DNA of 26,132 bases from a virus. The notes below the pieces were generated by a model. It did no database searches and was not told where the DNA came from. It saw only the letters and a list, made by a program, of their open reading frames with translations. Location: positions 1-26,132 of the IMG/VR virus record IMGVR_UViG_3300042504_000415. The stretch is one strand, 5' to 3'. The stretch's first letter is position 1; the number at the start of each line of letters is the position of its first letter. Of the stretch, positions 2,002-12,134 are shown in pieces. The translations under genes and the position numbers were made by a program.

Positions 2002-2523
2002 ATGAGCGTGCTGATTTTAAATATGACTGAAAGCTGGAAAGATGTGTCAGGCTATGAGGGGTTGTATGAAGTCAGCGACATTGGACGCGTATTGTCAAAA
2101 CGTACCAATCGACCGCTTAAACCGAACATCATGAAACACGGATATGCCTGCGTTCATTTGTATTCGGGCGGTAAACAAACCCGCGTCGTTAAAACCATAC
2201 ATCAGCTTGTAGCGCAGGCGTTCATCCCTAACCCGCAAGGCCACCGCGAAGTCAACCACAAAAATTTTTTGAGGCGTGATAACCGCGTAGACAATTTAGA
2301 GTGGGTATCGCGCAAGGAAAACGTGCAGCACGCGCTAGCCGCTGGGCGGCGAGTCAAACCGGAAAAGCGCGTCATGGGCATCAACTTACGCACCAAGACG
2401 ACGGTATGTTTTGGGAGTCAAATCGCGGCTGAAATTGCCCTACGCGGCAAGCAAACTGGTGGTATCAGCGGAGCGATGAAACGCGGAAAGCCCGCGTATG
2501 GATACGTATGGTGGTTCGCATGA
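2002..2523 (+). CDS. Free-standing HNH homing endonuclease (NUMOD4 - HNH_3 - NUMOD1)
   Basis: This is a 173-aa homing endonuclease. An N-terminal NUMOD4 DNA-recognition motif (W12, VSGYEGLYEVS at 15-25, GRV at 28-30) is followed by an HNH_3 core (His67 in IHQLVAQAFIPNP, Asn85-His86, Asn94-Arg95, Asn98 in DNRVDNLEWV). The C-terminal ~50 residues resemble a NUMOD1 helix-turn-helix. Such enzymes cut a specific site in a related genome and spread by repair. It lies directly before the DNA polymerase gene, a common target neighbourhood, and its stop overlaps the polymerase start (ATGA), so polymerase translation may be coupled to it. An internal ATG at 2023 (MTESWKD) is an alternative start close to the conserved region; neither start has a strong ribosome site. 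Confidence 0.9.
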   Translation: MSVLILNMTESWKDVSGYEGLYEVSDIGRVLSKRTNRPLKPNIMKHGYACVHLYSGGKQTRVVKTIHQLVAQAFIPNPQGHREVNHKNFLRRDNRVDNLEWVSRKENVQHALAAGRRVKPEKRVMGINLRTKTTVCFGSQIAAEIALRGKQTGGISGAMKRGKPAYGYVWWFA

Positions 2524-4490
2524 GTGTATTGTGGCTTGACACAGAAACAAGAAGTCGCGTTGATCTTATTTCAAGGGGCTCTTACAACTACGCTCAAGAC
2601 CCATCGACATCGTTACTGTGTTTGTCATATGCGTTTGACGACGAGGAAGTTAAAACTTGGATACCTGATCAACCTTTCCCCCAGCGTGTGGCGGATCACT
2701 TCGCAAATGGCGGCCGCATCTATGTTCATAACGCGGCGTTTGATCGTTTAATTCTGTGGTATGTGGTTTGTCCGGAATTTGACGTTCCTGAACCCCGACT
2801 TGAGCAGTTTTATTGCACTGCAACACAGGCGCGTGCTAACTGTGCGCCAGGGTCGCTTGAGGACGTGGGGCGGTTTGCTAGCGCAGACATGCGTAAGGAC
2901 TACCGTGGGGCGCAACTGATAAGGCGGCTATGTATGCCGCAGGCAGACGGCAAGTTTTGCCAAGATGCGGCACTTTTTGCCGAGATGGTGGCCTACTGTG
3001 AACAAGACGTTCGCGCCATGCGAGCCATCTCCAAGGCCATGCGCGACCTATCAGCCGAAGAACTAGCCGACTACCATGTGAACGAGCGCATCAACGACCG
3101 TGGTGTGCTGGTGGACGTAGCGCTGTGCAAGGCCGCGATCGACTACGCGTCAGACGAGTTGGTCGAGATCGAGCAACTGGTCGCTGAAGTAACGCAAGGT
3201 GAGATTATGAGCGTGCGCTCGCCCAAGATGCGTCAGTGGGTCATGGACCGCGTTGGTCCTGAGGCGCTCAAGCTCATGGAGTCTTACAAGGACGGTGAGA
3301 AGAAGTATTCGATTGATAAGACCGTTCGCGCTAATTTGCTTGCGATGGACGATCCTGAACAGGTGCCACCGGACGTTGCTGACGTGATCCAGTGCGCGGA
3401 CGACCTGTGGGCTAGCAGTGTGGCGAAGTTCGCTCGCCTGGCTGCGCTTGCAGATGATGAGGACCATCGCGTCAGGGGTGCGTTCGTATTCGCTGGCGGC
3501 TCGGCCACGGGTCGTGCGTCGTCTTACGGCGCACAAGTTCACAATTTCACGCGCAAGTGTGCGGATGACCCCGAGGCTGTGCGGCACGCGATGGTGCGCG
3601 GTCACAAGATCGTGCCGACCTACGGGCGACGCGTCACTGACGTACTTAAAGGAATGCTACGGCCTGCGCTGATGCCTGCGCCTGAGCATGTGCTTATCGT
3701 AGCAGATTGGGCGGCTATTGAAGCGCGTATGAACCCGTGGCTGTCAGCGCATGTGACGTCTGAGGCTAAGTTAGATTTGTTTCGCACGGGCGCTGACATT
3801 TACAAACACAACGCGAGTCGAACCTTTAACGTGCCCATTGAACAGATCGACAAGGAGCAGCGCCAGATCGGGAAGGTCCAAGAGCTTGCCTGTGGTTACG
3901 GTGGCGGCGTGGGTGCGTTCGCCTCGATGGGGCGCATTTATGGCGTTAACCTTCCCGAGGCTGACAGCAGGCGCATGGTGGACGCGTGGCGTCGCGCTAA
4001 CCCGTGGGCGGTGCACTACTGGCAGGCACTTGAGTCCGGTTACTTGCGTGCGATGAAGCATCCAAAGTCTGAGTTTAAGGCTGGCCGTGTGACATATTAT
4101 TTTGACGGTCAGCACCTATGGTACGCGCTGCCGTCAGGGCGCATCCTATGCTATCCCTACGCTAGGCTAGAGGAAGATGGCGTGTCCTACGCTAAGGCGT
4201 CATGGAAGCCTGCTGCGGACGCTAAGGAGTGGCCTAGAGCGCGGCTGTGGAAGGGATTGGCAGCAGAGAACATCTGCCAGGCAGCGGCTAACGACATCTT
4301 GCGCTCGTCGCTGCGTCAGCTTGATGGCGTGGTGTTGCATGTGCATGATGAGATTGTTTTAGAGGTTCCAGCGTCTGACGCTGACGCTGCGGTGGCAATG
4401 CTGCATAGCGTCATGTGTACGTCGCCCGCATGGGCAAGCGGTCTGCCCTTAGAGGCCGAGATCAACGTTATGACAAGGTACGGAAAATGA
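2520..4490 (+). CDS. Family A DNA polymerase with 3'-5' exonuclease domain
   Basis: This 656-aa replicative polymerase carries all expected motifs. The DEDDy proofreading exonuclease shows Exo I Asp7/Glu9 (WLDTET), Exo II Asn71/Asp75 (HNAAFD) and Exo III Tyr159/Asp163 (YCEQD). The polymerase shows motif A with Asp396, Glu401 and Arg403 (DWAAIEAR), motif B with Arg448, Lys452 and Tyr460-Gly461, and motif C with His609-Asp610-Glu611. No 5'-3' exonuclease domain is present, as usual for phage PolA-type enzymes. All catalytic residues are intact. I chose the ATG at 2520, which overlaps the HNH stop as ATGA and has GGTGG upstream, over the ATG at 2508, which lies inside the HNH gene. It ends with an ATGA overlap to the primase-helicase gene, so the two are probably made together. 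Confidence 0.95.
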   Translation: MSVLWLDTETRSRVDLISRGSYNYAQDPSTSLLCLSYAFDDEEVKTWIPDQPFPQRVADHFANGGRIYVHNAAFDRLILWYVVCPEFDVPEPRLEQFYCTATQARANCAPGSLEDVGRFASADMRKDYRGAQLIRRLCMPQADGKFCQDAALFAEMVAYCEQDVRAMRAISKAMRDLSAEELADYHVNERINDRGVLVDVALCKAAIDYASDELVEIEQLVAEVTQGEIMSVRSPKMRQWVMDRVGPEALKLMESYKDGEKKYSIDKTVRANLLAMDDPEQVPPDVADVIQCADDLWASSVAKFARLAALADDEDHRVRGAFVFAGGSATGRASSYGAQVHNFTRKCADDPEAVRHAMVRGHKIVPTYGRRVTDVLKGMLRPALMPAPEHVLIVADWAAIEARMNPWLSAHVTSEAKLDLFRTGADIYKHNASRTFNVPIEQIDKEQRQIGKVQELACGYGGGVGAFASMGRIYGVNLPEADSRRMVDAWRRANPWAVHYWQALESGYLRAMKHPKSEFKAGRVTYYFDGQHLWYALPSGRILCYPYARLEEDGVSYAKASWKPAADAKEWPRARLWKGLAAENICQAAANDILRSSLRQLDGVVLHVHDEIVLEVPASDADAAVAMLHSVMCTSPAWASGLPLEAEINVMTRYGK

Positions 4491-6799
4491 CAAAAAATTT
4501 TTTGGAGTTCCTAATTTCTCTTGCGCCCGAGGGCGAAACGCCGCTCATCGTGCGGCAAAAGCCTATGATGAAGGACGGTCAACTACAGTTCCATGCGGAT
4601 GGCGCGATTAAGTGCACATGGCCTGCCCATCTGCCGGACATTAAGAAGATCAAGCCCGATCAGGCGTGGTATGGCAATACTGCGTCGTTTATTGTTGATC
4701 GCTTTGGCGATCATGTGTCGGCATCGGCGGCTAACTGTGAGTACTGTCTGGTGCTTGTGCTTGATGACGTGGGCACTAAGTCGAAGGCGCCGACGCTTGC
4801 GCCGACGTGGATTATGGAAACATCGCCTGGGTCGTACCAGTATGGCTATGCCTTTAGCGATGACCAACCCACCAAAAGCGAGTTCAGCGCGGCTATTAAA
4901 GCAATTGCCAACGCAGGTTACACCGACCCAGGCGCAACCAACGCCGTGCGTAACTTTCGCTTGCCTGGCTCGATCAACCTTAAGCCAGGTCGCAATAACT
5001 TTGCCGCGCAGCTTGTCGAGTTCCACCCCGATCGACTGTTTACGCTGCCTCAGATCTGCGAGGCGCTAGGCGTTACGCCGAGCGAGGCTGATAGCGCAGG
5101 CCCAAGCCCGATCAAGATCGCTGACACGGGCGATGATGATGTCTTTGCGTGGCTTGCCGCGCAGGGTCTTGTCTTGTCGCGCCCGAACCAAGAAGGATGG
5201 GCTGGCGTGATCTGCCCGAACCATGCCGCGCACACGGACGGCAACCCCGAAGGGCGTTATAAGCCTGCCCTGCGGGCGTATTGCTGCCTTCACTCGCACT
5301 GCGTGGACTTCGACACCAAGACGTTCTTATCGTGGGTCGCCGAGCAGGGCGGGCCTGAACACGCGCTTGGCTTGCGTGATGATCTGCTTGCGGCCACCAT
5401 GCAATCGACCCTTAACAAGATCGAGCCTTCGACGTTCTTTAGTGATGATGCTAAGAAAGTCATCGAGGAAGTTGAGCGCAAAGAACTTGGTCGCGTGGAG
5501 ATGAAGGGATGGTTTGAGCGCTTTGCATATCTTCAATCCGACGATTCGTTTTTTGATATGCAAGATCGGCGCGAGGTGCCGCGTTACGTGTTCAATGCGC
5601 TCTATCGCCATGTGAATTGCATCTCGATCAACAGTAAGCGTAAGGTCGAGGCAGCTACCGCATTTGATGAGCAGCGCCAGGCGATGGGCGCTCGTACCCT
5701 AGTGGGCGTGACCTATGCAGCAGGCGAAAGTCTGCTTGTTGCGCGTGATGGGGACGTGTATGGCAACCGTTGGCGCGATGCGCGTCCTGAAGTCGATAAA
5801 GCATACGTTGGGGACGTTAGCCCTTGGCTTGAGCACTGCGAGCGCTTGGTGCCTGAGCCTAGCGAGCGCGAGCATCTTTTTAACGTGATGGCATACAAGT
5901 TGCAGCATCCCGAAGTCAAAATCAATCACGCCGTGCTGCATGGCGGCGATCAAGGGTGCGGTAAGGACACTATGTGGGCGCCTTTTCTTTGGGCGGTATG
6001 CGGGCCAGGATTGAAGAATCGCGGTCTGCTCGATAACGATTCGCTGTCGTCGCAGTGGGGTTATCAACTTGAGTCCGAGGTGTTGATCATCAACGAGTTG
6101 AAGGAACCCGAGGCGGCTGCGCGGCGTGCGCTTGCGAATAAACTTAAGCCCATCATCGCTGCGCCTCCAGAGATGCTTCCGATCAATCGCAAAGGCCTGC
6201 ATCCTTATGACATGCTTAACCGATTGTTCGTGTTGTCGTTCACGAATGACCCGCTGCCCATATCGCTTGACTCGCAGGATAGGCGCTGGTTTTGCATATG
6301 GTCGCGTGCGCCTCGTATGCGCGATGATGATGCAAGGCAACTTTGGGAGTGGTACAAGTCTCATGGGTTTGTCGCCATTGCCGCATGGCTCTATCAGCGC
6401 GACGTATCGGCGTTTAACCCTGCCGCTACGCCTGCATGGACCGAGTTCAAATCGAATCTTGTTGAACACTCTATGAGCACGGCTGAGAGTTGGCTTGTCG
6501 ACATGATGCGCCGCCGCCAGGGTGAGTTTAGTAAAGGTGCAGTCGGGTCGCCCTTCCATGCGCTTATTGATCGATTGCTTGGCAGTATGCCTGCCGGTAT
6601 CAAAGTTCCCCAGGCTGCGCTGTTACATGCGCTCAAAGAAGCCGGATGGGTCGACGTGGGCCGGTTAGCGTCGGCAGAGTATTCGACTAAGAAGCATGTC
6701 TTTGCTGCTCCTGAGCTTGCCAATCGACTAAGCAAGTCCGAGCTAAGGCGCTTGGTCGAAGATACTGCGCCGCCTTCTAAGATGACGCTTGTAAAGTAA
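4487..6799 (+). CDS. Primase-helicase (RepB/AEP-like primase, zinc-finger-like region, DUF5906/VirE SF3-type helicase)
   Basis: This 770-aa fusion protein probably primes and unwinds DNA at the phage fork. The N-terminal ~220 residues resemble a RepB/archaeo-eukaryotic primase domain, with Asp93-Asp94 in VLVLDDVGTKS and RNFRLPGSIN later on. A zinc-ribbon-like region follows, with Cys243 and His246 then Cys266, Cys267, His269, His271 and Cys272. The helicase half has a Walker A (GGDQGCGKDT, about 486-495), a Walker B-like EVLIINELKE, and a sensor/arginine-finger region (FTNDP at 585-589, DRRW from 598), as in the DUF5906 family to which the NrS-1 phage PrimPol-helicase belongs. The start at 4487 overlaps the polymerase stop as ATGA, with AAGG about 8 nt upstream. 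The earlier ATG at 4415 lies inside the polymerase frame overlap and was rejected. Confidence 0.85.
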   Translation: MTKNFLEFLISLAPEGETPLIVRQKPMMKDGQLQFHADGAIKCTWPAHLPDIKKIKPDQAWYGNTASFIVDRFGDHVSASAANCEYCLVLVLDDVGTKSKAPTLAPTWIMETSPGSYQYGYAFSDDQPTKSEFSAAIKAIANAGYTDPGATNAVRNFRLPGSINLKPGRNNFAAQLVEFHPDRLFTLPQICEALGVTPSEADSAGPSPIKIADTGDDDVFAWLAAQGLVLSRPNQEGWAGVICPNHAAHTDGNPEGRYKPALRAYCCLHSHCVDFDTKTFLSWVAEQGGPEHALGLRDDLLAATMQSTLNKIEPSTFFSDDAKKVIEEVERKELGRVEMKGWFERFAYLQSDDSFFDMQDRREVPRYVFNALYRHVNCISINSKRKVEAATAFDEQRQAMGARTLVGVTYAAGESLLVARDGDVYGNRWRDARPEVDKAYVGDVSPWLEHCERLVPEPSEREHLFNVMAYKLQHPEVKINHAVLHGGDQGCGKDTMWAPFLWAVCGPGLKNRGLLDNDSLSSQWGYQLESEVLIINELKEPEAAARRALANKLKPIIAAPPEMLPINRKGLHPYDMLNRLFVLSFTNDPLPISLDSQDRRWFCIWSRAPRMRDDDARQLWEWYKSHGFVAIAAWLYQRDVSAFNPAATPAWTEFKSNLVEHSMSTAESWLVDMMRRRQGEFSKGAVGSPFHALIDRLLGSMPAGIKVPQAALLHALKEAGWVDVGRLASAEYSTKKHVFAAPELANRLSKSELRRLVEDTAPPSKMTLVK

Positions 6800-7868: not shown

Positions 7869-8206
7869 TCGCAGCCAGTTACTACGTAATGAGGATCATC
7901 AACGCCGTCGGGATAGTCGTCTTCGTCTTCGTCTTCGTCTTCGTCTTCGTCTTCGTCATTTGCGATCAAATGATTAGCAATTGCCCACCAGTCAACATCG
8001 GACAAGAAAGCTCTTGCGTAATCACGCGCAAGACCTTCGTTTGACGTTGCGTCGATTAGTTCTTCAGCATATTCGGCGCACGCGTCTTTTAATTCCGCAA
8101 CGGAAAATACAGTGCGTCCTGTTAAGTCGCGTGCTGTCATGCCATCAAATATTTCAAGATTGACGCGCCAAGTCGCGTAGTTCGTCCATCCGTTGTAAGT
8201 TGCCAT
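7865..8206 (-). CDS. Phage protein of the NGWxNYxTWxVNL type with a poly-(Glu-Asp) tract (113 aa)
   Basis: This 113-aa protein has the N-terminal NGWTNYATWRVNLEIFDG signature of a widespread phage and plasmid family (DUF7249-like, function unknown). The middle is helical and rich in Asp/Glu, and near the C-terminus it carries an uninterrupted Asp-Glu alternation (DEDEDEDEDEDED) encoded by a 6-bp repeat at 7918-7957. The acidic tail could mimic DNA or compete for a basic host protein; that is a guess. The start at 8206 has AAAGGA about 10 nt upstream. It overlaps the next gene as ATGA. Confidence 0.75.
   Translation of the reverse strand: MATYNGWTNYATWRVNLEIFDGMTARDLTGRTVFSVAELKDACAEYAEELIDATSNEGLARDYARAFLSDVDWWAIANHLIANDEDEDEDEDEDEDDYPDGVDDPHYVVTGCE
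7918..7957. repeat. 6-bp tandem repeat coding for Asp-Glu alternation
   Basis: The plus strand reads CGTCTT six times followed by CGTC, which on the minus strand is GAAGAC repeats coding Glu-Asp. Because the unit is a multiple of three, slippage changes the length of the acidic tract without breaking the frame. Confidence 0.9.
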
Positions 8207-8234
8207 GATTGATTGTCCTTTACTGTATTGGATT

Positions 8235-8254
8235 AAAAAGGCCCGTAGGCCCTC
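8235..8254 (-). terminator. Possible attenuator/terminator between the first two minus-strand genes
   Basis: On the minus strand GGCC-TACG-GGCC forms a short stem with a C(UACG)G loop (a stable UNCG-type tetraloop), extendable by weak G-U and A-U pairs, followed by five T residues (8235-8239). It lies between the 68-aa gene and the next start at 8206. The core stem is only 4 bp, so partial termination is more likely than full. Confidence 0.45.
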
Positions 8255-8257
8255 AAA

Positions 8258-8464
8258 TTAGCGTGTTGCTTTCTTGTAGTCTGGATGAAAGATGCCAACA
8301 GAATAGCTGAGCGAGCGTATCGCCCAGTCTTTAGCGTACTGCTGGCGCTCGGGATACGTGAAGTTTTCCGAGTCAATGATGCGAATAGCATCTTCCAGGC
8401 AGAAGCGAGAGTTACTGCAAGATGCGTGTTTACGCGCCAGTGCAATTACTTGTTGTGTCGTCAT
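8258..8464 (-). CDS. Small helical phage protein of unknown function (68 aa)
   Basis: This 68-aa protein starts MTTQQVIALARKHASCSNSR and contains DAIRIIDSENF and YAKDWAIRSLSYSVG, a helical pattern. No family is recognised with certainty. It is the first gene of the minus-strand operon. GAGGGG lies about 6 nt before its ATG, and a candidate promoter sits about 33 nt upstream of the ATG. The next gene is separated by a possible attenuator, so this gene may be expressed more strongly than the rest. Confidence 0.75.
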   Translation of the reverse strand: MTTQQVIALARKHASCSNSRFCLEDAIRIIDSENFTYPERQQYAKDWAIRSLSYSVGIFHPDYKKATR

Positions 8465-8496
8465 TTTTAACCCCTCAAGTTTGTTTGTGAGCCTTC

Positions 8497-8525
8497 AGTG
8501 TAAAGCATTGTTTTGCAAAATGCAA
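8497..8525 (-). promoter_or_regulatory. Candidate promoter with palindromic operator for the minus-strand operon
   Basis: Read on the minus strand, TTGCAT (8520-8525), a 17-bp spacer and TACACT (8497-8502) resemble a sigma70 promoter of moderate quality. The spacer contains the perfect 10-bp palindrome TTTTGCAAAA (8511-8520) inside a larger imperfect dyad (8505-8523, GCATT ... AATGC). Binding of a repressor there would block the promoter. It sits about 33 nt before the ATG at 8464, leaving room for the GAGGGG ribosome site. Confidence 0.45.
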
Positions 8526-8704
8526 GATTGGCAAGTTTAAAGGCGTGAATTGCCCAGGAAATGGGGGGTGGATTGCCAATGATTGCCAATGTTAAATCGT
8601 TGATTTACAAGGAGATTACACGGCTATTGGCAATATTGTCATTTATTTTCTATTGCAAGGAGCTATCAAAGTGGGGCTAGGCTAACTTAAAAGGCATGAC
8701 AATT

Positions 8705-8793
8705 TTGCCAAGATTGCCAATGATTTTGGGCTTTTCGCCCCCATCGCCCCCCGCGCTTATTCCCCCGCCCAAAATCATTGGCAATCTTGGCAA
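8705..8793. repeat. 27-bp-arm inverted repeat (potential large hairpin)
   Basis: The 27 bases at 8705-8731 are the exact reverse complement of 8767-8793, with a 35-nt C-rich spacer (8732-8766). Five more outer pairs (8698-8702 with 8794-8798) form if two T residues bulge. Each arm carries a TTGCCAAG and a TTGCCAAT box, so the hairpin displays the same boxes as the rest of the array. It has no T run of a terminator. Confidence 0.9.
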
Positions 8794-8802
8794 TTGTCTT
8801 GT

Positions 8803-8929
8803 CATTGCCAAGATTGCCAATGGTTACAAAGTCTAGAGCATGACCCAAACTGCCAATGGTTACAAATAGCAGATCATTGCCTAGATTGCCAATTGCTACA
8901 AACTTTGGAGCATGACCCAAATTGCCAAT
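8803..8929. repeat. Duplicated 72-bp unit carrying 36-bp-spaced boxes
   Basis: The segment 8803-8857 and the segment 8875-8929 agree at 48 of 55 positions, giving a 72-bp repeat period. Each unit contains CATTGCC, AGATTGCCAAT, TACAAA and GAGCATGACCCAAA. Inside the unit the box GCCAAT recurs every 36 bp, so the 72-bp period is two 36-bp steps. Confidence 0.85.
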
Positions 8930-9057
8930 CGGTCGGCGGTCGGTCGGCGGTCGGTCGGCGGTCGGTCGGCGGTCGGTCGGCGGTCGGTCGGCGGTCGGTC
9001 GGCGGTCGGTCGGCGGTCGGTCGGCGGTCGGTCGGCGGTCGGTCGGCGGTCGGTCGG
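8930..9057. repeat. 11-bp minisatellite, eleven perfect copies
   Basis: CGGTCGGCGGT is repeated eleven times without a single mismatch (8930-9050), followed by a partial copy (CGGTCGG, 9051-9057). The unit is not a multiple of three, so it is not coding. The period is close to one DNA helical turn, and the plus strand is a series of GG tracts that could form two-layer G-quadruplexes. It starts directly on the last TGCCAAT box. Confidence 0.95.
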
Positions 9058-9149
9058 GGCGGCTTGGCTTGAGGCCCCCCGGGTAGGGCCGACGGCCTGG
9101 CAGGTCAGGGCCGGAGGGTCCACAAGAAATTTTTTTATTTTTATTAAAT

Positions 9150-9178
9150 TACATGCCCCTAGCCAAAAGTATTAGAAT
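9150..9178 (+). promoter_or_regulatory. Weak candidate promoter for the terminase operon
   Basis: TAGAAT at 9173-9178 matches a sigma70 -10 box at five of six positions and lies downstream of an AT-rich stretch (9127-9150) that could act as an UP element. The -35 position (about 9150-9155) is poor. It is the only candidate I see before the terminase small subunit gene; a phage-specific late promoter is equally possible. Confidence 0.25.
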
Positions 9179-9216
9179 CCCTTACGCTTAGGTCATCTTG
9201 GTAAAATTGTCACGCT

Positions 9217-9708
9217 ATGTTTAAGAGCCTACCCCTCACAGTCCGAACGATTGAAGCGACAGAAGCTGTACTGGAGCGCATCTACAACGCTGCGTATCTT
9301 GGCTTGAAAGAAGATTCGTTGGCGTTAGCGGCAGGGTTGTTACCTGTAGAGTACCGGCTACTTAAACAGCATGACAAACTTGCCGAAATTGCCGAACTCA
9401 AGGGACGCGCAGATAGTGAGCGCGAGCACAGCCAGCACATGTTGAACGCGGCGCGGCAAGGCGACGCTAAGGCGGCGCTAGAGATACTGAAGCACACGCA
9501 TGGTTGGGTCGCCAAGCAGGCGGTGAGTATTGAGGTGGATCAGCGCATCAGCGTGATCGACGCGCTCAGAGCGGCGGAGACGCGCGTTGATGAGGGTAAA
9601 GTGATCGACGTGACGCCACAAAGTGAAAAGCTAACACATGCAGAAACCAATATACAATCCGGAAGACGAGCAACTGCTGATGACGCGGTTGTGGTCCCCC
9701 GCGATTAA
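9217..9708 (+). CDS. Terminase small subunit
   Basis: This 163-aa protein is helical, with a terminal-type helix-turn-helix in the first ~60 residues (LGLKEDSLALAAGLLPVEYR) and a conserved later segment (AALEILKHTHGW) often seen in phage small terminases. It would recognise viral DNA and hand it to the large subunit. Its gene lies directly upstream of the large subunit gene and overlaps it by 71 nt. No ribosome site precedes the ATG at 9217 (GTCACGCT), which is unusual in this genome; expression may be low or leaderless. The repeat-rich region immediately upstream could be its binding site. Confidence 0.75.
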   Translation: MFKSLPLTVRTIEATEAVLERIYNAAYLGLKEDSLALAAGLLPVEYRLLKQHDKLAEIAELKGRADSEREHSQHMLNAARQGDAKAALEILKHTHGWVAKQAVSIEVDQRISVIDALRAAETRVDEGKVIDVTPQSEKLTHAETNIQSGRRATADDAVVVPRD

Positions 9709-11591: not shown

Positions 11592-11758
11592 TGCCACTCG
11601 TAAAATCAACCAGCAAAGAAGCCTTTCGCAAGAACATCAAGGCTGAAGTTGCCGCAGGAAAACCGATAGCCCAAAGTGTTGCAATTGCGTATTCTATTAA
11701 ACGTGCGGCGGCGAAATCTCCTGCGGCAAAGAATCCTGTTTCAAAGCGCTCCAAATAG
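11591..11758 (+). CDS. Small basic phage protein with a replaced C-terminal tail (55 aa)
   Basis: This 55-aa protein starts MPLVKSTSKEAFRKNIKAEV, then AAGKPIAQSVAIAYSIKR and a basic tail. The body matches a common small phage family (...AGKPxxQAVAIAYSVKR...) usually encoded near the portal. The last ~20 codons (11697-11758) are antisense to the 3' end of an HNH endonuclease gene. A second tail of the same type (VKREAAKKAPTTKKK) lies beyond the HNH gene at 12215-12265, just before the portal. The likely reading is that the cassette split the original gene and the present tail is a substitute. It seems functional: frame and stop are intact. Confidence 0.75.
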   Translation: MPLVKSTSKEAFRKNIKAEVAAGKPIAQSVAIAYSIKRAAAKSPAAKNPVSKRSK

Positions 11759-12134
11759 GCCGCATGCGTTCTTCAAGCTCAATTTTTTGGTGTGCTGCAT
11801 TTGACAAAACAGCTAAATTTTCTAACCGGTTGTCATGAGAATTACCATTGATGTGATGGACATGCTCCCACGAAGCCAATTTTCTGCCCAAATGCTGTTC
11901 CATAATGTATCTATGGACACGCACTTGTTTCCCATTTACATTCATGGTTTTGTAAGTGCGAGTTGGTTTACCAGTAGGACGAAAACGAAAATGCGAAAAT
12001 TGTTCCAAATGCTCTTTTGCCAAGCAAGAACGAGAGCAATATTTAGCTTTTTCTTTTCTATATGTGGGGACTCTAAAAAGTTTATTACATACGGCGCAAG
12101 TCAAAATAGCGCCAGTTCGGTCACGTTTTTTCAT
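11697..12134 (-). CDS. HNH homing endonuclease with N-terminal zinc finger, antisense to the late genes
   Basis: This 145-aa protein has an N-terminal zinc-finger-like region (Cys13, Cys16, Cys33, Cys37) and an HNH_3 core (RVHRYIMEQHLGR, His93-His94, Asn96, Asn102-Arg103, Asn106 in DNRLENL). It is complete. TAAGGAGCT lies about 9 nt before the ATG at 12134, one of the best ribosome sites in the window, and a good promoter with TATAAT lies just upstream. It is transcribed against the surrounding structural genes, so it is an independent unit. Its last ~20 codons overlap the plus-strand 55-aa gene. It probably spreads by cutting versions of this locus that lack the cassette. Confidence 0.9.
   Translation of the reverse strand: MKKRDRTGAILTCAVCNKLFRVPTYRKEKAKYCSRSCLAKEHLEQFSHFRFRPTGKPTRTYKTMNVNGKQVRVHRYIMEQHLGRKLASWEHVHHINGNSHDNRLENLAVLSNAAHQKIELEERMRPIWSALKQDSLPQEISPPHV

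Follow-up and report, generated by a model that had tools for sequence, protein, structure and literature searches.

What reads the short repeated boxes that crowd the interval between the leftward small genes and the putative terS of a P22-like podophage, and what would they be for? The DNA analysed here (the window) is a 26,132-base fragment, IMG/VR virus record IMGVR_UViG_3300042504_000415, which by its gene content is part of a P22-like podophage genome, with genes for a DUF2800 nuclease, a family-A DNA polymerase, a primase-helicase, leftward small proteins, a putative terminase small subunit (TerS), the large subunit TerL, and a P22-type portal and coat. Its top GenBank match, the circular 38.8-kb podophage record MW202483 from Manatee Spring, is 56.5% identical in the polymerase and 53.4% in the primase. 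The interval is bounded by the leftward ORFs, which end at 8464, and by the putative terS, which starts at 9217 and is so named because of its position before terL, its product having no Pfam or PHROGs match. Two of these genes recur below:

2508–4490, plus strand: family-A DNA polymerase, presumed to carry out primer extension
9217–9708, plus strand: putative TerS, named from its place before terL

The window also holds two HNH endonuclease-like genes, one within the replication module (2002–2523, plus strand; NUMOD4 plus HNH_3) and the other between terL and the portal gene (11697–12134, minus strand; HNH_3). At 7917–7957, 6.8 copies of TCGTCT code for an acidic Asp/Glu stretch of a DUF7249 protein. 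A tRNA scan found no tRNA, and six Rfam matches at E up to 1 were all far below their gathering scores.

An ordered array of boxes

A preliminary description, made from the sequence of the window, had reported an ordered array of TGCCAAT boxes here, and the array proved to be as described: ten copies, seven on the plus and three on the minus strand, lie within 8527–8929, and the last four plus-strand boxes start at 8815, 8851, 8887 and 8923, exactly 36 bp apart, with GCCAATKGYTACAAA repeated exactly at 8816, 8852 and 8888. Boxes at equal density elsewhere were not seen in the window, where ten of the 12 copies fall inside the array and the other two are at 4256 and 6718. Shuffled windows (n=100) held a mean of 4.9 copies and a maximum of ten per whole 26 kb, and the densest 403-bp stretch of Markov-resampled windows (n=300) held three. 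In 200,000 trials with seven sites placed at random, three successive spacings came out equal 58 times. The 36-bp spacing is a local duplication, and the first half-site of its units, read from the sequence, alternates between TTGCC[AT]AGA and TGACCCAAA.

A better form of the box is ATTGSCAAT, a near-palindrome with eight exact copies, all within the array. Both orientations had been counted correctly, but the division into direct and inverted boxes amounts to the central base alone, because the box is nearly palindromic. Several boxes are paired as tandem dimers at a pitch of 9–10 bp. The features of the interval are as follows:

8527–8929, no strand assigned: array of ATTGSCAAT-type boxes in both orientations, putative iterons of a proposed origin
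8808–8929, plus strand: tandem array of period 36 bp in 3.4 copies (Tandem Repeats Finder), with a box dimer at 9-bp pitch in each unit
8612–8661, no strand assigned: lowest-GC 50-mer of the interval (GC 0.30), candidate unwinding element
8705–8793, no strand assigned: perfect 27-bp inverted repeat of box dimers (8705–8731 and 8767–8793)
8507–8534, minus strand: promoter-like match (consensus match only) facing the leftward genes

The candidate unwinding element is weak in comparison with those of many relatives. The inverted repeat folds as single-stranded DNA with a z of -9.2. The first hexamer of the promoter-like match, TTGCCA, overlaps the leftmost box, and the region holds three such matches against 0.8 expected. 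A scan of 8400–9300 found no terminators, and a nucleotide search with 8200–9300 against a phage collection returned four Enterococcus records only (E 0.3), whose matches span 48 bases at 8441–8488, outside the array.

Elements between the array and terS

Adjoining the array, at 8929–9057, are 11 full copies of an 11-bp GC-rich tandem repeat, TCGGTCGGCGG; there are four in L004, which is 100% identical to the window in TerS and in as much of the primase as it includes. Other short GC-rich tandem repeats occupy the same interval in several relatives. A G-rich element beginning GGGTAGGGCC follows at about 9070–9140, and then AGAAATTTTT-type sequence before terS; this G-rich element ahead of terS recurs in the relatives read and could be a packaging site. 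One relative, L030, has a leftward 198-aa ORF (L030:4770–5366), common to L042 and L052, which by eye we take to resemble a sliding-clamp-type protein. L030 and L046 carry a gene for a 23-aa PqqA peptide just before terS (L030:7188–7256 and L046:4966–5034; Pfam PF08042, E 3e-10), which hints at methylotroph hosts for this clade. PqqA in a virus has already been reported, from Lake Baikal (PMC7678222).

Relatives keep the array and change the box

Relatives were gathered by searches with TerL and the primase. From 302 records, 213 unique primase loci remained once duplicates had been removed on the basis of a 600-bp stretch; terS lay downstream in 160 of them, and 159 were analysed. The primase was complete, with boxes and TerS also present, in 143, and 119 were left after removal of primases at least 97.5% identical. 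These loci are metagenomic contigs, many of them related, and box similarity comes from a home-made 6-mer caller that in some GC-rich loci took GC-rich 6-mers and not boxes. Of 50,697 phage records, 25 match the primase, one of them across at least 80% of its length. Among the genome contigs of 84,980 species genomes one primase relative was confirmed, on a lake MAG contig (L325); a single match is in line with a rarely integrated family, in a scan that detects close relatives only. The family is thus known here almost only from metagenomes.

The genomes nearest to the window share its TGCCAAT cluster. Other relatives are without it, and in many of them the interval is occupied by another repeated box, frequently with a pitch of 8–11 bp: TGACCGAA, TGACCTAA, TGACCCAAA, TTGTCCACA, GCCCACA, ATTGCCTACAT, TGACTACAT or GCCAACA, with GTTTACATAAAC-like repeats in MW202483 and no clear box in the interval of some loci. 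The exact 36-bp phasing holds among the nearest relatives and does not extend to the wider family: it occurs in 22 of the 30 rows compared (28 distinct contigs, L086 and L091 being duplicate contigs of L005 and L006), and the other eight rows lack it with the boxes kept. In one genome, G002, 15 of 34 copies of TG[CA]CAAT lie outside the array, the expectation for the whole genome being about nine. The preliminary description had held that related genomes keeping the genes but not the array would speak against it. The array is in fact kept by relatives, with a box sequence that differs by lineage, and that test would mislead, to the point of rejecting a real feature, because genes and array both persist while the box changes with its presumed reader.

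A primase-helicase with a predicted winged helix

No initiator gene had seemed obvious in the window, and yet our best candidate for the reader is encoded there:

4415–6799, plus strand: primase-helicase (RepB_primase and DUF5906), proposed initiator and box reader
6443–6757, plus strand: C-terminal winged-helix-like domain of its predicted structure, about residues 677–781
6668–6688, plus strand: predicted wing tip, residues 752–758 (ASAEYST), of which 752, 754 and 757 covary with the box

Pfam identifies RepB_primase and DUF5906 in this protein, DUF5906 above its cut-off, and no TOPRIM at E up to 0.001. No known plasmid Rep family was matched by the selected window proteins scanned. AlphaFold2 modelled the whole protein with a pLDDT of 83.3 and a pTM of 0.50, and the last 155 residues alone with a pLDDT of 84.4, mostly above 90 for residues 51 to 140 of that segment. 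In the models, helices lead into a hairpin of two strands whose tip is formed by residues 752–757, and helix 733–742, which precedes the hairpin, is largely conserved; the predicted layout is that of a winged helix whose wing carries the variable residues. With the domain alone, fold searches were weak: Foldseek found nothing below E 0.001, and the best VIA-align hit, an extended winged-helix domain, had a Z of 6.5, within the range of common arrangements, although rows 1 and 3 are titled winged-helix domains. P4 alpha and SaPI Rep were not among the best 50 VIA-align rows, which excludes nothing. Nor did the C-terminal domain recur elsewhere, for example in an Odn-like nuclease: 270 of 325 loci had a match, always in a single place.

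The helicase part has a clearer counterpart. Its closest solved structure, in sequence as in fold, is the C-terminal region of the NrS-1 primase-polymerase (PDB 6k9c, 6k9e and 6lrb), with a PDB profile E of 3e-11, a Foldseek E of 6.7e-16 and a TM-score on target of 0.63. Identity in the structural alignment is 14%.

Box and wing change together

Close relatives allow the candidate readers to be separated. Compared with L030, TerS is 97.1% identical in L042, 98.5% in L041 and 97.8% in L046, TerL is 98.8–99.2% identical in all three, and the polymerase is 98.6% identical in L042 and 98.7% in L041 (the L046 contig does not cover it); the primase is 99.9% identical in L042, 96.2% in L041 and 96.3% in L046. 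L030 and L042 have TTGCCAAT/TGACAAT boxes in common, L046 has GCCTACAT and L041 has TGACTACAT. The primases of these four differ mostly in their last 160 residues, with a dense cluster at columns 741 to 773, and L037, also with TGCCAAT boxes, has the L030 residues at columns 741, 746, 747, 760 and 768. Genomes that are 96% identical in primase and 97–99% in TerS therefore carry different boxes where the wing differs.

The same pattern was seen across the 143 loci, where pairs counted as close if they were 92% or more identical in the primase without its C-terminal part and 90% or more in TerS. Mean box similarity was 0.813 in the 140 close pairs with the same residues at 752 and 754, and 0.122 in the 50 pairs with different ones. 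In eight groups of close relatives the wing belongs to two or more classes. Six of these groups show a box change alongside the wing change, with the primase apart from its wing 90–96% identical; in the other two, where the wing changes are S/G or A/G, the box is kept or partly kept. Among neighbours below 72% identity, box similarity was 0.212 for those nearest by wing, 0.096 for those nearest by the rest of the primase and 0.050 for those nearest by TerS.

The wing segment was spotted by eye first and was then recovered by a scan of all windows, in which identity in a sliding 7-residue stretch of the primase was compared with box similarity over the 119 loci by a partial Mantel test, with the remainder of the protein as control. 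The scan has one clear peak, at ASAEYST (r 0.42), and the best window not touching this segment reaches 0.19; the best single columns are 752 (0.44), 757 (0.345) and 754 (0.225), the next being 0.139. The Mantel permutation ignores the tree, for which the comparisons of close pairs and close groups are the better control. With the wing controlled for, the partial r with the box is 0.29 for TerS and 0.36 for the rest of the primase, a residual correlation that would be expected from shared ancestry and is inseparable here from other causes.

Because box and wing tip change together across relatives, we take the primase-helicase to be the most likely reader, and the covariation, together with the contrasts between close relatives, makes it most likely that the array is an iteron origin. 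The earlier idea of iterons read by a replication initiator is thus well supported by an array that changes with the primase wing; what has to be amended is that a candidate initiator is encoded in the window. A hidden, linked reader elsewhere in the genome would need to mimic a peak at three primase residues.

Other readers of the same boxes can be weighed against these results. The boxes might form an operator array through which a small regulator of the leftward or another operon controls divergent promoters, as they lie between divergent genes and one of them overlaps a promoter-like match. However, the ORF families (40 aa or longer) encoded between primase and TerS are each present in at most 35 of the 119 loci, too few for a common reader, and the small leftward proteins were rejected in this role (their most widespread family reaches that count; a NinX-like protein was not scored separately). 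A regulator encoded elsewhere would need linkage to three primase wing residues, and we consider an operator array unlikely; autoregulation by the primase-helicase would not conflict with origin reading.

TerS had also been put forward as a reader, and the boxes would then be a packaging site of the pac or cos type, bound by the terminase small subunit encoded downstream. The array is directly upstream of terS with the conserved G-rich element in between, and box similarity does correlate with TerS identity, both raw (r 0.37) and with the wing controlled as above. At the same time, TerS is 97–99% identical between genomes with different boxes, and its identity does not follow the box: L041 and L046, with the more similar TerS, differ from L030 in their boxes while L042, with the less similar one, shares them. 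The best TerS window, at the C-terminal end, reaches 0.25 against 0.42 for the wing, and distant neighbours by TerS do not share boxes. Close relatives and the window scan thus both go against TerS, and a packaging site is very unlikely. That the array is a by-product of tandem duplication or repeat expansion with no dedicated reader, as the duplicated 36-bp unit and the adjoining 11-bp repeat (11 against four copies in near-identical genomes) might suggest, is highly improbable given that throughout the family this interval repeatedly contains arrays, of differing sequence, and that box sequence covaries with a specific protein segment.

A wing–box correspondence and its exceptions

In many loci Arg at 754 goes with boxes ending in ACA and other residues with boxes ending in A[AT], and at 752, K or R goes with C, M or Y with T, and A with A. 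Bases could be called in 84 of the 117 loci with a recognisable wing (of 119), leaving 33 uncalled. Arg754 was found with C in 42 of 49 calls and other residues with T in 33 of 35; at 752, K was with C in 26 of 32, A with A in 36 of 40 and M with T in all six. Six K-x-R loci were called AAT; four of these (L292, L293, L308 and L311) show TCCACA boxes, and their calls are likely due to CACAAT arising where the box overlaps a following AT.

The rule was fixed in advance and then run on fresh loci (182 new loci, 115 unique primases). Ten were skipped, four without a wing motif and six without terS downstream, and the 105 tested gave 95 predictions. The outcome was mixed: 43 of the 61 called were right (34 of the 95 were uncalled), with calls that stem from only 12 distinct wing sequences. 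K/R-x-R predictions were right in 28 of 28 cases, and M/Y-x-R wings did not occur. For A-x-R, 11 of 28 called predictions were right, 17 were wrong and three further ones uncalled; the wrong loci mostly have an ASREYQT wing, which pairs with more than one box type (ATGACC[CT]ACA in L406, and CCAACA also within the class). For A-x-notR, four of 36 were right, one was wrong and 31 were uncalled because the wings V-A-S-G and V-A-S-S pair with TGACC[CTG]AA boxes, a type absent from the rule. With patterns widened post hoc, all 64 loci with Arg754 have ACA-type boxes, and 35 of the 41 with another residue have A[AT]-type ones, counts that are descriptive only, considering that the ACA pattern is broader and ties were counted as A[AT].

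One counter-example, L065, has the wing of L194, from which its primase differs at five positions, none in the last 60 residues, yet it carries mostly TGACCCAC-type boxes near the AT-rich element. The array of another locus, L352, holds two box types. Both may be recombinants or mixed assemblies, between states.

A proposed origin of replication

Around the lowest-GC 40-mer the boxes of the family face inward (minus strand on the left, plus strand on the right) in a fraction of 0.778, where random split points gave 0.649 (maximum 0.687); in 88 of the 99 loci with usable boxes, each side of the 40-mer has boxes on the strand expected there. The boxes of the window itself are not cleanly split around its AT-rich element, with two left and two right on the minus strand and two left and six right on the plus strand. 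Cumulative GC skew, suggested earlier as a check, does not switch sign at the array, and its extremes lie off the array in seven records (six IMG/VR contigs and MW202483).

Taken with the predicted fold and the analogy to known initiators, the covariation makes it very probable that the boxes are iterons of a replication origin and that their reader is the winged-helix domain at the C-terminus of the phage-encoded primase-helicase. From homology and analogy we infer binding, helicase loading, priming and origin function. Several copies of the primase-helicase would bind the box dimers around the AT-rich element, a helicase ring would be loaded and the DNA opened, the N-terminal primase domain would lay primers, and the phage's family-A polymerase would extend them. 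Speculatively, as one box overlaps the leftward promoter-like match, the protein may also repress early genes.

Relation to known systems

Judging by analogy, the system of the window most likely works like the Rep-ori of PICI/SaPI or the alpha-ori of P4, and is a member of neither. With PICI/SaPI it shares a primase and initiator module with iterons, and as there the C-terminal domain of the initiator helicase would set origin specificity, here as judged by covariation only. A PICI origin is described as an AT-rich region with a set of iterons on either side (PMC6092414). Unlike a PICI origin, which is immediately 3' of rep, the array starts at 8527, 1.7 kb beyond the end of the primase gene at 6799, with leftward ORFs between; and unlike PICIs, integrating satellites that depend on helper structural genes, the window has a P22-type portal and coat, terL and its own polymerase. 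An excerpt of the PICMI paper makes no mention of iterons (PMC10803314).

In SCCmec, the isolated C-terminal domain of Cch2, a D5/Primase_Cterm-type helicase, is reported in the text available to bind direct repeats at a putative origin (PMC7581432). It differs from the window in that priming is by separate proteins and the iterons are three of 5 nt, and the same portion of that paper describes no lineage-wise change of iterons with the protein. P4 alpha, a protein that has been compared with pRN1, joins primase, helicase and an origin-repeat-binding winged helix in one protein (PMC4234260). The P4 primase is of the bacterial TOPRIM type, and that of the window is RepB_primase by Pfam.

Covariation of initiator and iterons has precedents. 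In the Vibrio PLE, the DNA-binding domain of a RepA_N initiator is reported to vary in step with the origin that bears the iterons, the two being exchanged together, with an origin-directed nuclease proposed as the pressure (PMC8263062). RepA_N is another protein family, and there a whole domain covaries, compared with a few wing residues in the window phages. Geminiviruses, which infect plants and have single-stranded DNA, use a Rep of an unrelated type. Their iterons are short, differ between close relatives and match each virus's own Rep, according to an excerpt of PMC12548392. In the open-licence PMC literature, no title or abstract among the matches listed deals with this origin or with a wing–iteron code.

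We conclude that the array is a real feature and that it is most likely an iteron origin recognised by the primase-helicase that the phage itself encodes, whose wing–box pair has been switched repeatedly. On a bolder reading, to which we would give an even chance, a large, apparently virulent podophage family replicates from a satellite-like origin with a self-loading primase-helicase, in which about three wing-tip residues set specificity by a near one-residue-to-one-base code, 752 going with the variable base and Arg or another residue at 754 with ACA or A[AT]. Origin specificity would then have flipped repeatedly between phages whose primases are otherwise more than 90% identical, as though under pressure from nucleases that target origins, from satellites or from competing relatives. 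The result is a testable proposal for the origin and the initiator of a phage family met here nearly always in metagenomes. Moreover, its relatives form a natural library of wing–iteron pairs, which could show how DNA is read by the wing of a winged helix and how the specificity of an origin shifts, and which leaves the drivers of such switching open to experiment.
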